A DNA stretch of 35,070 nt from Planctomycetota bacterium (GTDB lineage Bacteria > Planctomycetota > PLA2), in assembly GCA_027297745.1 (NCBI GenBank), contig JAPUHK010000100.1, forward strand, positions 1-35,070. Reading direction: 5' to 3'. How positions within the stretch are numbered: the first letter of the stretch is position 1; each line of letters starts with the position of its first letter. Shown here in pieces: positions 28,085 through 33,799 of this stretch. Both the position numbers and the translations under genes were made by a program. Under the pieces are notes generated by a model, which was not told the DNA's origin, did no database searches, and saw nothing but the letters and a program-made list of their open reading frames with translations.

Positions 28085-29248
28085 GTGATCACGCGAAAAG
28101 AACAGACCCTATCCCCTCTGACCCGCAAGGCCCTCGCGGAGCGAGTGGCTGCACGCGCTGGCATCGACTCGAAAACCACGATCACCGTCATCGAGGCGTT
28201 GTTCGAGATCGTGCAAGAGGCGCTTCTGGAAGGCGAGAAGGTCGACCTCAACGGGGTCTTGGACATGGGTGTCGTCGTCGAGCCGGCGCGCATCCGCCGC
28301 GAGTCCTCGGGCCGTTTCAGTGAGATTGCGCCGGCGCGCCGCCGGTTGCACGTCAAAGTCTCCGAGCCGCTGCGTGAACGGCTCGCACAACAGCGCACCG
28401 CGGCGATCCTGCTGGCCATGCGCAAGCAGGGCCCGTTCCCCGACATCCTCGCGAATCACTTCGCGCGTCTGGGCTGGAAGGTGCAGACGGTGGACTCCGT
28501 CTCCGCCTGCGACACGCTGCTCGAGGGATCGCAGCCTTACCTCGTGGTCGCCGACCACGCGTTGAAGGGCCGCGATGACTTCGTCGCGCAGCTCAAGAGC
28601 ACGTGGCGCACGAATCCGATTCCCGTGATCACGCTGCACACGCGTCACGAGAACCTGCGCAGGACGGCCGAGCTGCGCATCGAGGGCGACCTCGCGGCCA
28701 TCGAACCCATCGAGGTGAACCCCTTCCTGGTCGCGGCCGACCAAGTACTGGCGCAGGCTACGGAAGAGGCCGCCGTCTTCGAGCGGCAGATCCGCTTCCG
28801 CCTGCCTGCGCGCGAGGAAGAGGTCCTGCGCGCCTTCGATCTCGCGGACGGTTTCTTCAAGGACGCCGGGTTCCGCGGGGATTCGCTCGTGGGGCTAACG
28901 ACCGCCTTCCGCGAGGCGGTGCGCAACGCCGAGTTGCACGGCTGCAGCGCGAGTCCAGAGCTCGGTATCAGCGTCGAGCTGCTGCTGGACGCCGAAAAGC
29001 TCACCACGACGATCGAAGACGACGGGAAGGGCTTCGAGCATGCCAAGTATCGCGACGGGATCGAAGGCTCCGCGCCCGTTTCGATGGCGCGCAAGCGCCA
29101 CAAGAGCGGTGAGTCCGGTGGACTCGGCATCTACCTGATGGAGCGTTGCGCGGACCGGTTGGAATACAACGACCTGGGAAACCGGGTGACCTTGACGAAA
29201 CTGCGGGAGACGGAGCCCGAGCCGGACCCGCCGGGTCAGGAGGGTTAG
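28085..29248 (+). CDS. HU/IHF-like domain + degenerate receiver-like domain + RsbW-type HATPase (serine kinase/anti-sigma type) fusion
   Basis: aa 11-100 LTRKALAERVAARAGIDSKTTITVIEALFEIVQEALLEGEKVDLNG... (HU-like). aa about 105-222 receiver-like without canonical DD/K. aa 234-373 HATPase with N-box FREAVRNAELHG, G1 EDDGKGF, G2 GGLGIYLM. GTG start. Confidence 0.75.
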   Translation: MITRKEQTLSPLTRKALAERVAARAGIDSKTTITVIEALFEIVQEALLEGEKVDLNGVLDMGVVVEPARIRRESSGRFSEIAPARRRLHVKVSEPLRERLAQQRTAAILLAMRKQGPFPDILANHFARLGWKVQTVDSVSACDTLLEGSQPYLVVADHALKGRDDFVAQLKSTWRTNPIPVITLHTRHENLRRTAELRIEGDLAAIEPIEVNPFLVAADQVLAQATEEAAVFERQIRFRLPAREEEVLRAFDLADGFFKDAGFRGDSLVGLTTAFREAVRNAELHGCSASPELGISVELLLDAEKLTTTIEDDGKGFEHAKYRDGIEGSAPVSMARKRHKSGESGGLGIYLMERCADRLEYNDLGNRVTLTKLRETEPEPDPPGQEG

Positions 29249-29249
29249 C

Positions 29250-30416
29250 GTGCAGTATGACCTCACGATCCGCAACGACCCTCCCAAGGACAGGATCGCA
29301 ACGATTGGCCTTGGAGGCGTCGTCGACGCGCACACGTTGGACAAGTTCGAGGCTGCGCTGCGCAGCGCAGCGGAAGGGGACGTGCGTTCGGTCGTCCTGG
29401 ACTGCGAGGAGTTGCGCTACATCAACTCGTCCGGTTTCGGCGAGCTGATCCGCTACTCCGACCGGTTGCGCGAGAAGGGCGGCAGCCTCGTCCTGGCGCG
29501 CGTGCCACCCAAGGTCGGCATCATCCTCGAGATGCTGGGCCTCAAACGCCTGATCCCGACGGCGCCCTCGGTGGCCGAGGCGATCCTTGCGGCGCAGCAG
29601 CCCCCGCCGCCGGCGTTGCCGTCGGAGAAGGCTCCCGAACCCGAAGCGGCGCCCGCACCCACGCCCGAACCCGAACGCGTGCCCGCGCCGGCACCGCGCA
29701 CGGCGAGTCCCAAGATCACGCCCCCCGCGCCGCCGCGCCTGCCCATCGATCAACCTGGGCCGCCGGCTACGGCGGCATCGCCGGGTCCGTCGAGCCCGAT
29801 AGGGCCCCCCTCGCGAATCGATGTGCGCGACCGCTTTCCCGAAGCGAAGCAGGTCACGGAGGAAGCCGCTGCGGAGTTGCCGGAGGGCGAAGCCATCGTG
29901 CGCTGCGCGCTGTGCGACGTGCGCATGCACATCGGCGGGCGCGGCCGCTGGCTGTGCCCGTCCTGCGGCGCGCCGTTCACGGTCTCGCCCGAGGGCGGAC
30001 TGGCCTTCGAGTGGACCGAGTCGGAGGCCGAGGCCATGCACCTCACCTTCGACGTCGCTCCGCGCACGCTGGCGGCTTTCGCCGGCGTGCTGGAGGGCAT
30101 CCTGACCGAGCGACGGGTGTCCCACGCGCGCACGCGGCGTTTCAGCCGCGAGGCGGCGCACGTGTGTCACCTCGTAAGCCAGCACGCGTACGGAAGCGGG
30201 CGTCCGGGACCCTTGCACGTCCTGTTGCTGGCCGGCCCGGAGCGCCTGCGCCTGCGCATCGTCGACCGCGGGAGCTCGCTCGGCACTCAGGCGCACACTG
30301 TGTTCGAGACGCAGGCGCGCCTCTTCCTGGACTTCCGCTATCTGCAGCTGAGCGGGGGCGTGCACGTGACGGAGCTGGCCTTCGCCTACACCGGTTCAGG
30401 GGTCTTCGTCGCATGA
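29250..30416 (+). CDS. STAS domain anti-sigma-factor-antagonist fused to Pro-rich linker, zinc ribbon and degenerate HATPase-like domain
   Basis: STAS: VVLDCEELRYINSSGFGELI (conserved Ser). Zinc ribbon CALCDVRMHIGGRGRWLCPSC. C-term REAAHVCHLVSQHAYG...LRLRIVDRGSSLG resembles the RsbW N/G1 region without the N-box Asn. GTG start, 1 nt after previous stop. Confidence 0.75.
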   Translation: MQYDLTIRNDPPKDRIATIGLGGVVDAHTLDKFEAALRSAAEGDVRSVVLDCEELRYINSSGFGELIRYSDRLREKGGSLVLARVPPKVGIILEMLGLKRLIPTAPSVAEAILAAQQPPPPALPSEKAPEPEAAPAPTPEPERVPAPAPRTASPKITPPAPPRLPIDQPGPPATAASPGPSSPIGPPSRIDVRDRFPEAKQVTEEAAAELPEGEAIVRCALCDVRMHIGGRGRWLCPSCGAPFTVSPEGGLAFEWTESEAEAMHLTFDVAPRTLAAFAGVLEGILTERRVSHARTRRFSREAAHVCHLVSQHAYGSGRPGPLHVLLLAGPERLRLRIVDRGSSLGTQAHTVFETQARLFLDFRYLQLSGGVHVTELAFAYTGSGVFVA

Positions 30417-30982
30417 GCCGACCCCGCCGCCGCCGCGATGCCCCCGAGGGCGCCCTCGCCGCGGTGCTGGGCGGGGCCGTGACCCGGGAGCAACTCAGCG
30501 CCGCGGCCGCCCGCGAAGGCTGCGCCGGCATGCCGCTCGTGCGCACCCTGCTCAAGCGCTACCTGCCGCCCCAGGCGGAGCTGGCGAACGTCTACAGCTA
30601 TCGCAACTTCCCGGCACGCCTGGAGGCGCGCGTGCTCAAGCCGGCGCCCCAGGCGGGCGCGCTCCTGGATCCGGACATCCTGGCACGACTGTGCTGCGTC
30701 CCGCTCGTGATCCTGCACGACGTGTGCGTTCTGGCCGTGGCCCCGGGCCGTGAAGCCGAGGCGGTGGCCTCGATCCACGCCACCTTGAAGCGGGGCGTGA
30801 TTCCCGTGCTGGCGGACGAAGCCGTCATCGAGTGCGCCATCCGGGGCATCCCGGACGTCCCGGACGCCGCACCCCATTTCCTGCGACCGCGCCGCTCCAG
30901 CCCGACCTGGGAGCGTTTCGAGAACAACGTCCTGCGCTCCGTTGAGCTCGAAGCCATCCCGCTCGACAAAGCGGCGCCATGA
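30413..30982 (+). CDS. Stand-alone T2SSE_N/MshEN-like protein (GspE/PilB N-terminal domain without ATPase)
   Basis: ATGA overlap with upstream gene. AAVLGGAVTREQLSAAAARE...DPDILARLCCVPLVILHDVCVLAVAPGREAEAVASIHATLKRGVIPVLADEAVIECAIRGI matches the GspE N-domain pattern. Confidence 0.55.
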   Translation: MSRPRRRRDAPEGALAAVLGGAVTREQLSAAAAREGCAGMPLVRTLLKRYLPPQAELANVYSYRNFPARLEARVLKPAPQAGALLDPDILARLCCVPLVILHDVCVLAVAPGREAEAVASIHATLKRGVIPVLADEAVIECAIRGIPDVPDAAPHFLRPRRSSPTWERFENNVLRSVELEAIPLDKAAP

Positions 30983-32118
30983 TCGGCAGCATCCCCGCTC
31001 GGGCTTCTCCGGCGTCGCGTGCCGGACGCCAGGCGTTCGTGTCCGCTGCGCTCGTCGCGCTCTTCGTGGCCGGCACGCTGTTCGTGCTGCGCACGCGCAC
31101 GACGCTCGATCTGCCGCTCGCCGTGGGAACGAGTGCGGTGCTGGGCTTGCTTTGGGCGGCGCTCGCAGGATGGTTGGTGCAAGCGCGCGAATGGCGCCGC
31201 CGCCGCCTGCGGCTGGCGCTCGATCGCATGGAGCAACACCGGCAGGATCTCGAGGCGCAGATCGAAGTGCTCGACGCCACGCTGGAGGAAGCAAAGCCGG
31301 AAACGGAGAAGTCCGACGCCGCGCGCGAGCGTGACGAGCGCTGGAGCCGCTCGATCCAGAGCGCGCTGTTGCCGGCCCGCCCGCCCGTGCTGCCCGGCTA
31401 TCACATAGACGCGCTGTACCTGCCCTGCGGTGTGCTCGGCGGCGACTTCTACGACTTCCGCGTCTTCGAGGACGGCCGCGTCCTGGTCACGCTCGGAGAC
31501 GTGTCCGGCAAGGGCGCGGCGGGCGCCATCGTGATGGCCATGGTGCAGACGCTGTTCCGTCAGAACGCGGACGTCGCATGCGGGCCCGCGGACCTGTTGG
31601 CCCGCGTCAACGAGGGTTTCGCGGGCGCGGTGGGCAAGGGAATCTTCGTGACCGCCCTGGCCGCCTGGGTGGACCCCGCGCGTCACACGCTCACGCTGGC
31701 GGGGGCGGGGCACCACCCCGTGATGTTGTTCAACGTTCGCAAGCGCGTGAGCTCGCTGGTACAGGCGAAAGGCGCCGCTCTCGGTCTGGTGTCCGGCGCG
31801 GACTTCAGCGAGTCGCTGGTGGAGACGCGCATCGATCTCGCACCCGGCGACGCGTTGCTGTTCTACACGGACGGCGCCAGCGAAGGCTCCGACTCGCTCG
31901 TGACCGACACGGGCGAAGACCGTTTGCGCGCCGCGGCGGCCGCTGCGGTTCTGGAGGGCTTCGACGGGGCGCTGGGACGCATCCGCAACGATCTCTACGC
32001 GGCCGCCGCGCCGCGCGACGACTCGACGCTGGTGTTGGTCGCGCGGCACGGGGGCCCCGGTGGGGCGCACGTCGGCAGAATTCCCACGGCCCGAACTTCG
32101 GAAGGCCTAACGGCTTAG
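30979..32118 (+). CDS. Membrane-anchored SpoIIE/RsbU-type PP2C serine phosphatase
   Basis: ATGA overlap with upstream gene; two N-terminal TMs and coiled coil. PP2C motifs GGDFYDF, LGDVSGKGAAGAIVMA, LFYTDGASE, RDDSTLVLV. Confidence 0.9.
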   Translation: MIGSIPARASPASRAGRQAFVSAALVALFVAGTLFVLRTRTTLDLPLAVGTSAVLGLLWAALAGWLVQAREWRRRRLRLALDRMEQHRQDLEAQIEVLDATLEEAKPETEKSDAARERDERWSRSIQSALLPARPPVLPGYHIDALYLPCGVLGGDFYDFRVFEDGRVLVTLGDVSGKGAAGAIVMAMVQTLFRQNADVACGPADLLARVNEGFAGAVGKGIFVTALAAWVDPARHTLTLAGAGHHPVMLFNVRKRVSSLVQAKGAALGLVSGADFSESLVETRIDLAPGDALLFYTDGASEGSDSLVTDTGEDRLRAAAAAAVLEGFDGALGRIRNDLYAAAAPRDDSTLVLVARHGGPGGAHVGRIPTARTSEGLTA

Positions 32119-32391: not shown

Positions 32392-33039
32392 GTGCCCCGC
32401 ACCTTCCTCTTCGACGTCGACGGTACGCTCGTCTTCTACCCCGGGATCGGGCGGCGTGCGTTGGAGCGCGCCATCTTCGAGGAGTGGGGGACGCCCGATG
32501 CGCTCGCGCGCACTTCTTTCGCGGGCGCCACCGACCACGGGCTGGTTGCGGGAGTCGCCGAAGGCCGTCCCCCGGGGGACGTCTGGGAGCGCTATGTGCG
32601 CTATCTCGAGGCGGACATGGAAGCGCTTCCGGATGCCACTCCCCTGCCCGGCGTGAACGCATTGCTGGATCGCCTCGCGGCCTCCGGTGCGCGACTGGGG
32701 TTGCTCACAGGCAACTTGCGTGTGGGTGCGCGAGCGAAGCTGGGGCGTCCCGGGCTGTGGGCACGTTTCGACCCCTCGATCTCGGCCTTCGGCGACGACG
32801 GCATGCAGCGCGTGCAGATCGCCGAGGCCGCGCGTGCCCGTTGCGGCGCCGGTCCCTTGACCGTGATCGGCGACGCGTCCGCCGACGCTGTTGCCGCGCG
32901 CCACATCGGAGCCCGTGTACTGCTGGTGAACACGGGGCCGCAAGAACGCCACGAGCTCGAGCAGTGCGCGGCGGACCGGCTCGTCGAAGACTTCAGCGCG
33001 ACCGACGACGTTTGCGACTGGCTGCTTTCGCGGCCCTGA
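32392..33039 (+). CDS. HAD-superfamily hydrolase (phosphatase-like)
   Basis: Motif I FLFDVDGTLV, motif II GLLTGN, motif IV VIGDASADAVAA. GTG start. Confidence 0.88.
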   Translation: MPRTFLFDVDGTLVFYPGIGRRALERAIFEEWGTPDALARTSFAGATDHGLVAGVAEGRPPGDVWERYVRYLEADMEALPDATPLPGVNALLDRLAASGARLGLLTGNLRVGARAKLGRPGLWARFDPSISAFGDDGMQRVQIAEAARARCGAGPLTVIGDASADAVAARHIGARVLLVNTGPQERHELEQCAADRLVEDFSATDDVCDWLLSRP

Positions 33040-33799
33040 CGAACGCCCGCACGCGCGCCGGGTCCACCGCAGCGTCCGTGCGTCCGCCGCGCTTCAGAGC
33101 GGTGCCGACGATGACGCCGTCGGCGATCGCCAACACGTCCGCTACGCTGTCGCGCGTTACCCCGGATCCCGCCAGGATCGTGGCGCGCGGCAGCGCCTTG
33201 CGCGCCTCCTTCAGGTCCGCGAAGTCTGTCGGCTCGCCCGTGGCGGCCCCCGAGACGATCAGGGCGTCGGCCCCGTTGCGCTGTATGAGATCGCGGGCTG
33301 CGTGGGCCAGGTCCCCCCCGAACAGCGGCCGGCCGTGCTTGACGTGCACGTCGGCCGCGATGGCGGTCTTCAGCCCCAGAGCGGCCCGGGCCCGCAGGGT
33401 CTCAGCAGCCCGGCCCTCGATCAGGCCCTGATCCGTGGCCACCACGCCCGCGTGCACGTTGACCCGGATGAAGGCGGCGCCCGCGGCTGCAGCCACGCCC
33501 AGGGCGGCGCGGGCGTCGTTGCGCAGGGCGTTGATCCCTAGCGGCAGCCCGACCTGCGTGGAGACCGCCGCGGCGCAGATCGCCAGCGCCGCCACGGTTT
33601 CAGGCTCCAGATCCTGCTTGAGGAAGGGGGTGTCTCCGTAGTTCTCGAGGATCACCCCGTTCACGCCCCCGGCGGCGTAGGTACGCGCGTCGGCCAGCGC
33701 GCGGTCGATCACCCGCCCCATGCGGCCCCCGTAGCCGGGGCTTCCCGGCAGGGGCAGCAGGTGCACGACGGCGATCACGGGAGCCGGAAAGGCGGCCAT
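32993..33799 (-). CDS. BtpA/SgcQ family (TIM-barrel-like) protein
   Basis: AVVHLLPLPGSPGYGG...GGVNGVILENYGDTPF...GINALRNDARAALGVAAAAGAAFIRVNVHAGVVATDQGLIEG...ADALIVSGAATG. Confidence 0.88.
   Translation of the reverse strand: MAAFPAPVIAVVHLLPLPGSPGYGGRMGRVIDRALADARTYAAGGVNGVILENYGDTPFLKQDLEPETVAALAICAAAVSTQVGLPLGINALRNDARAALGVAAAAGAAFIRVNVHAGVVATDQGLIEGRAAETLRARAALGLKTAIAADVHVKHGRPLFGGDLAHAARDLIQRNGADALIVSGAATGEPTDFADLKEARKALPRATILAGSGVTRDSVADVLAIADGVIVGTALKRGGRTDAAVDPARVRAFVRAAKAASRKRRRSR

Follow-up and report, generated by a model that had tools for sequence, protein, structure and literature searches.

The 35,070-nucleotide stretch analyzed here, which we call the window (contig JAPUHK010000100.1 of assembly GCA_027297745.1, from a Planctomycetota bacterium), carries an operon of four genes, three of whose products probably form a partner-switching module of kinase, STAS-domain substrate and PP2C phosphatase working in the established cycle. 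All four open reading frames (ORFs) and the features described within them lie on the + strand. ORF1 (28085..29248, GTG start, 387 residues) joins an HU domain, a pseudo-receiver and an RsbW/SpoIIAB-type ATPase and is a predicted serine kinase. ORF2 (29250..30416, GTG start, 388 residues), its predicted substrate and antagonist, consists of a STAS domain, a proline-rich linker, a zinc ribbon and a degenerate SpoIIAB-fold domain. ORF3 (30413..30982, 189 residues) is an MshEN protein, the N-terminal fold of GspE/PilB, without an ATPase and with eroded motifs for cyclic di-GMP (c-di-GMP), and ORF4 (30979..32118, 379 residues) has two predicted membrane helices, a helical linker and a SpoIIE/RsbU-type PP2C phosphatase. 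A 1-nucleotide gap separates ORF1 from ORF2, and the ORF2/ORF3 and ORF3/ORF4 junctions are ATGA overlaps. This layout and the domain fusions had been proposed in an initial annotation and are borne out by the coordinates and by Pfam.

All four genes occur in identical order in three further genomes of the window's family (f1); a fourth family genome has the first two, its contig ending inside ORF2. Since the arrangement is conserved in three genomes at 55-63% identity of ORF1 and ORF2, it is not due to chance. Full-length matches in a scan of named genomes were confined to close family members within the Planctomycetota. The genomes compared here are mostly metagenome-assembled, their gene calls are automatic, and loci were picked from best matches.

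Domains and catalytic residues

Profile searches recovered the HATPase, STAS and PP2C domains in ORF1, ORF2 and ORF4, respectively, where the initial annotation had allowed for their failing to do so. The kinase domain of ORF1 (HATPase_c_2, residues 241-372, 28805..29200; PF13581, E=9.4e-16) is of the RsbW type, with RsbW and SpoIIAB as its nearest structures; the AlphaFold model of ORF1 was used solely for structural matches of the receiver and the ATPase. Its ATPase boxes are intact, namely the N-box (E277/N281), the G1 box (D312-x-G314-x-G316) and the G2 box (GGLG). Among 76 aligned homologs, N281, G314 and G316 are present in all, E277 and D312 in 75 each, and the G2 box is near-invariant.

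At the N-terminus lies an HU/IHF-fold domain (residues 12-100, 28118..28384; PF00216, E=7.9e-11). Homologs in the family start at the same residue and share this domain, which supports the annotated start, and as conservation of the HU-receiver-ATPase architecture extends through the phylum, the HU domain is not the product of a mis-annotated start. The HU-like region of the kinase is thus genuine, contrary to a doubt that the initial annotation had itself raised.

The region between the two (residues 105-228, 28397..28768) had been called receiver-like. A single-sequence Pfam search gives only a weak Response_reg match (0.047), but the ORF1-family profile matches the YycF receiver in PDB at 8.5e-13, alongside IHF (2.1e-15) and RsbW (1.5e-14), so that its assignment as a receiver is clear. 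The phospho-acceptor aspartate is kept in the window (D157) and in 60 of the 76 homologs, while the lysine position holds E207 in the window and no lysine in any homolog (glutamate in 53, glutamine in 16); the acidic pair is absent from the window protein. Judged by these residues, the domain is a pseudo-receiver, and with the lysine missing in the homologs and the acidic pair missing in the window, control by phosphotransfer is unlikely.

The STAS domain of ORF2 (residues 14-111, 29289..29582; PF01740, E=1.5e-16) matches SpoIIAA in Foldseek at 1.0e-6. Its predicted phosphorylation site, Ser60 (codon 29427..29429), corresponds by sequence to Ser58 of SpoIIAA and is invariant in an alignment of ten ORF2-type homologs. 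The zinc ribbon (CxxC...CxxC, 29904..29966) has four cysteines (C219, C222, C236, C239) that are invariant in six homologs. The C-terminal domain (30030..30389) scores weakly as HATPase_c_2 in the window (0.073) and at 5.2e-7 in the relative L127, and Foldseek matches the last 120 residues to SpoIIAB (1th8_A, 9.5e-6), from a modest model with a predicted local distance difference test score (pLDDT) of 59. The N-box asparagine and the G2 box are lost in the ORF2 alignment, and D339 and G341 of the DxG motif are kept; as far as the model and alignment indicate, this is a degenerate domain of SpoIIAB fold.

In ORF4, the SpoIIE/PP2C catalytic domain (31471..32046; PF07228, E=1.1e-34) has RssB-type phosphatases as PDB matches. 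Its GGDFYDF, GDVSGKG, TDG and DD motifs are intact and conserved in four homologs; the membrane helices were predicted from hydropathy. The initial annotation had read these genes as a complete partner switch, and the expected domains and conserved residues are indeed found. Conservation of the catalytic kinase residues and of the STAS serine makes a working switch very probable, and with kinase, STAS and phosphatase all present in complete form, the established cycle is the best reading.

Distribution in the Planctomycetota

A neighborhood survey, suggested by the initial annotation, showed that besides the four-gene order kept in three relatives, the kinase, ORF2-type proteins and MshEN recur together across the Planctomycetota. 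Of 300 genomes from this phylum, 177 are matched by the ORF1-homolog profile at a looser threshold and 74 contain the full HU-receiver-ATPase form. With the 177 genomes as positive control, the same query had no match at E<=1e-30 in 200 Bacteroidota-centered and 200 Bacillota-centered genomes. ORF2-type proteins extending past the STAS domain occur in 69 of the 300 genomes. Both types are present in 61 genomes, one alone in 13 (kinase) and 8 (ORF2 type), and neither in 218; by family, 27 are shared, out of 30 with the kinase and 33 with the ORF2 type. In several of the one-gene exceptions, the contig breaks off within a gene (G004, G123, G080, G277).

In 16 loci from 14 families (L108-L116, L118-L123, L126), a STAS domain takes the place of HU, yielding STAS-pseudo-receiver-RsbW fusions with NS, once TS, at the position equivalent to Ser60. 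A tree of 76 receiver-ATPase cores places the window protein and its family among the HU-type proteins and clusters the STAS types, with 7 changes of the HU/STAS label compared to 22 for shuffled labels. The fusion of kinase and STAS domain in these sister proteins supports the assignment of ORF2 as ORF1's substrate.

The genome of the window contains a second HU-pseudo-receiver-ATPase gene (G000 contig C20, L050:7104-8300, - strand), in whose receiver glutamate replaces the aspartate. It adjoins a GspK-like gene, and a GAF-Roadblock gene and a Roadblock/LC7 gene lie on the opposite strand; the arrangement is kept in two further genomes, G001 and G002 (L048, L049).

The MshEN partner

The MshEN match of ORF3 (PF05157, E=4.1e-5) is barely above the cut-off, yet the association it represents is widespread. 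In 37 of 51 HU-type kinase loci (22 of 30 families), the gene immediately upstream, in the same orientation, encodes a short MshEN protein; 3 of the 16 STAS-type loci also have MshEN immediately upstream. Since genomes contain about six MshEN domains each, chance alone would put one next to the kinase gene in far fewer than 1% of loci. Where ORF2-type genes are detached from the kinase, an MshEN gene is nearby in 9 of 20 loci examined, mostly as an adjacent divergent gene (among them L155-L160, L164 and L169), and in family f48 (L127, L146) the gene order is MshEN, kinase, STAS/zinc protein and second MshEN. Three of the four ORF3 proteins of family f1 score higher against the ORF2-linked MshEN subfamily than against the kinase-linked one (35-42 vs 16-28 bits); the window copy ties at 17.4 bits. 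The architecture given in the initial annotation holds but was incomplete: it lacked the recurrence of MshEN alongside kinase genes as well as substrate genes, and the sister proteins in which STAS stands where HU would be.

MshEN is known as a c-di-GMP-binding receptor fold (PMC5013675). Its two 24-residue RLG...Q motifs were scored here in the strict and relaxed forms that Wang et al. 2016 (PMC5013675) give. ORF3 reaches 15 of 22 relaxed positions, with 1/6 and 2/6 key residues, against 13.4 +/- 1.0 for shuffles. Seven relatives (L040, L043, L046, L093, L101, L115, L144) reach 20-22 of 22, although even the highest-scoring ones differ from the strict form in some key residues. By its sequence, ORF3 has lost the c-di-GMP motif, though it retains the MshEN fold by profile. 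Elsewhere in the genome, a short MshEN protein (G000 contig C64, L177:1360-2001, - strand) has a better c-di-GMP motif than ORF3; its gene adjoins one whose protein resembles the C-terminal part of GyrB.

Relation to known systems

The system resembles SpoIIAA/SpoIIAB/SpoIIE and RsbV/RsbW/RsbU in its RsbW-type kinase with N, G1 and G2 boxes, in the position of the STAS serine and in its PP2C phosphatase. It differs in the fusion of the kinase to HU and a pseudo-receiver, in the fusion of the antagonist to a zinc ribbon and a degenerate SpoIIAB fold, and in having an MshEN partner and no detected SigB/F/G sigma factor.

The nearest known single protein to ORF1 is LvrC of Leptospira (PDB 9qih), a receiver-Bergerat protein interpreted as an anti-sigma factor (PMC13269768), in which the receiver is likewise followed directly by an RsbW-type domain; over the whole chain, it is the structure that ORF1 matches best (1.7e-11). 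LvrC lacks HU, and its receiver is canonical and phosphorylated, whereas the receiver of the ORF1 type is without the lysine in 76 of 76 homologs. Two further systems, SypE/SypA and HsbR/HsbA, are not known to contain HU or MshEN and distribute their kinase and phosphatase domains otherwise. Both SypE/SypA, from Vibrio fischeri, and HsbR/HsbA, from Pseudomonas aeruginosa, are partner switches that, like the ORF1 system, involve a multi-domain receiver-containing regulator (PMC3610818, PMC10120452, PMC6482189).

With the c-di-GMP receptors MshE and PilF (PMC5013675, PMC11731258), ORF3 and its relatives share the MshEN fold, and several relatives also preserve a large part of both 24-residue motifs and of their 5-residue spacer. 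In contrast to MshE and PilF, MshEN here is a stand-alone protein encoded next to the kinase or STAS gene of a partner switch, with no ATPase, and the motif is lost in ORF3. In searchable papers, which did not include subscription papers, we found none joining 'MshEN' and 'STAS domain', none with 'HU domain', 'HATPase' and 'fused' together, and no description of a partner switch of the HU-kinase/ORF2/MshEN design. What sets the system apart from the known switches is the HU/pseudo-receiver kinase, the antagonist bearing a pseudo-SpoIIAB domain and the MshEN partner. The cell biology of Planctomycetota is unusual; the conserved set of kinase, substrate and MshEN would join c-di-GMP to partner switching by serine phosphorylation, and it offers a defined group of proteins for asking about the role of an HU fold within a kinase.

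Proposed mechanism and alternatives

From these parts we infer a cycle in which ORF1, as an RsbW-like kinase, would bind the STAS domain of unphosphorylated ORF2 and use ATP to phosphorylate it on Ser60, whereupon ORF2 would be released; membrane-anchored ORF4 would then dephosphorylate ORF2 and allow it to recapture ORF1. The HU domain and pseudo-receiver would be non-catalytic, most likely a platform for dimerization or interaction that is interchangeable with STAS in the sister proteins. The MshEN protein, as ORF3 or as the related proteins encoded next to kinase and substrate genes elsewhere, would be a constant regulatory partner that ancestrally probably tied the switch to c-di-GMP; in the window's family, where the binding motif has decayed, ORF3 probably acts as a protein partner. 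The target of the switch would be encoded away from the operon. A more far-reaching proposal, that throughout the phylum an MshEN c-di-GMP receptor directly gates a switch of HU-fold kinase and pseudo-SpoIIAB antagonist, with an output other than a SigB/F-type sigma factor or a classical two-component response, is tentative and rather doubtful.

Several observations weigh against the partner-switch reading. The SpoIIE gene is linked to the switch genes in the window's family only, and the products of seven further SpoIIE-domain genes in the genome could also target ORF2. For ORF1, AlphaFold gave a model of low quality (pLDDT 50, below 50 in the HU part). The p-value for the co-occurrence of kinase and ORF2 type (Fisher p=1.6e-41) overstates independence since the genomes are related, although the family-level overlap stands. 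The linkage of SpoIIE in a single family, together with the degenerate state of ORF3, could also suggest vestigial or unlinked genes, chance neighbors without a common function. This we consider very improbable, given the conservation of the operon and its catalytic residues, and it is already contradicted by the phylum-wide co-occurrence and adjacency.

The remaining alternatives concern the output and are compatible with the core partner switch. That ORF1 sequesters an unlinked sigma-70-family factor, which ORF2 releases, as in a classical anti-sigma switch, is possible if doubtful. RsbW and SpoIIAB are the nearest structures, LvrC has been read as an anti-sigma factor (PMC13269768), and the genome encodes four sigma-70-type proteins that score 117-123 bits against the SigBFG model. 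None of the four, however, reaches the TIGR02980 cut-off of 234 bits, and no SigB/F/G factor was found above it in this 94% complete assembly. As the initial annotation had noted, there is no sigma factor among the four genes of the operon, and among 112 neighboring genes from 29 groups of loci, the 25 most frequent families include no sigma family. A conserved target gene in the neighborhood was also considered and rejected, as these 112 genes yielded no recurrent candidate, only scattered housekeeping families.

We judge it unlikely that c-di-GMP gates the switch to act on type II secretion or type IV pili, with MshEN linking it to GspE/PilB ATPases. The receptor fold (PMC5013675), the largely kept motifs of several relatives, GspE/PilB genes near L043, L046 and L107, the GspK-like gene beside the second kinase gene and three GGDEF domains in the genome are in its favor, but the eroded motif of ORF3 is not, and secretion genes are not general among the loci.

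Quite unlikely, finally, is a switch in which free ORF1 binds or bends DNA through HU under the control of ORF2, the nucleoid-directed output suggested in the initial annotation. The HU/IHF homology is genuine, HU is kept in most of the kinase family, and many relatives retain the proline and TG at the arm tip, as in the DPxTG arm of L041. HU-fold domains do not necessarily bind DNA, however, and ORF1 has neither the basic DNA-binding surface nor the arm-tip proline. Its HU domain is near neutral, with a net charge of +2 (family range -6 to +10, mostly -4 to +4) whereas the genome's two canonical HU proteins carry +5 and +10, and the GRNP arm motif is gone from ORF1-type HU domains. The sister subfamily, moreover, has STAS, a protein-interaction domain, in place of HU. 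With a near-neutral domain and no arm-tip proline in the window protein, a nucleoid-directed output is unsupported, as, on sequence grounds, is DNA binding by ORF1, although other members of the family may bind DNA.

Further observations

The kinases of L040, L043-L047, L090-L093, L095-L097, L099, L144 and L145 have a second, partial HU-like repeat ahead of the main HU domain. In L114, a stand-alone canonical HU gene (L114:3744-4082, + strand) lies ~1.5 kb upstream of the STAS-type kinase and its MshEN gene. No RNA element was matched by Rfam within the window, and a reading of the operon as anti-phage defense was rejected as PADLOC gave no match. Downstream of the operon, the window contains HAD hydrolase and BtpA genes (32392-33036 and 32993-33799), and in L032 the operon is likewise followed by a HAD hydrolase gene.

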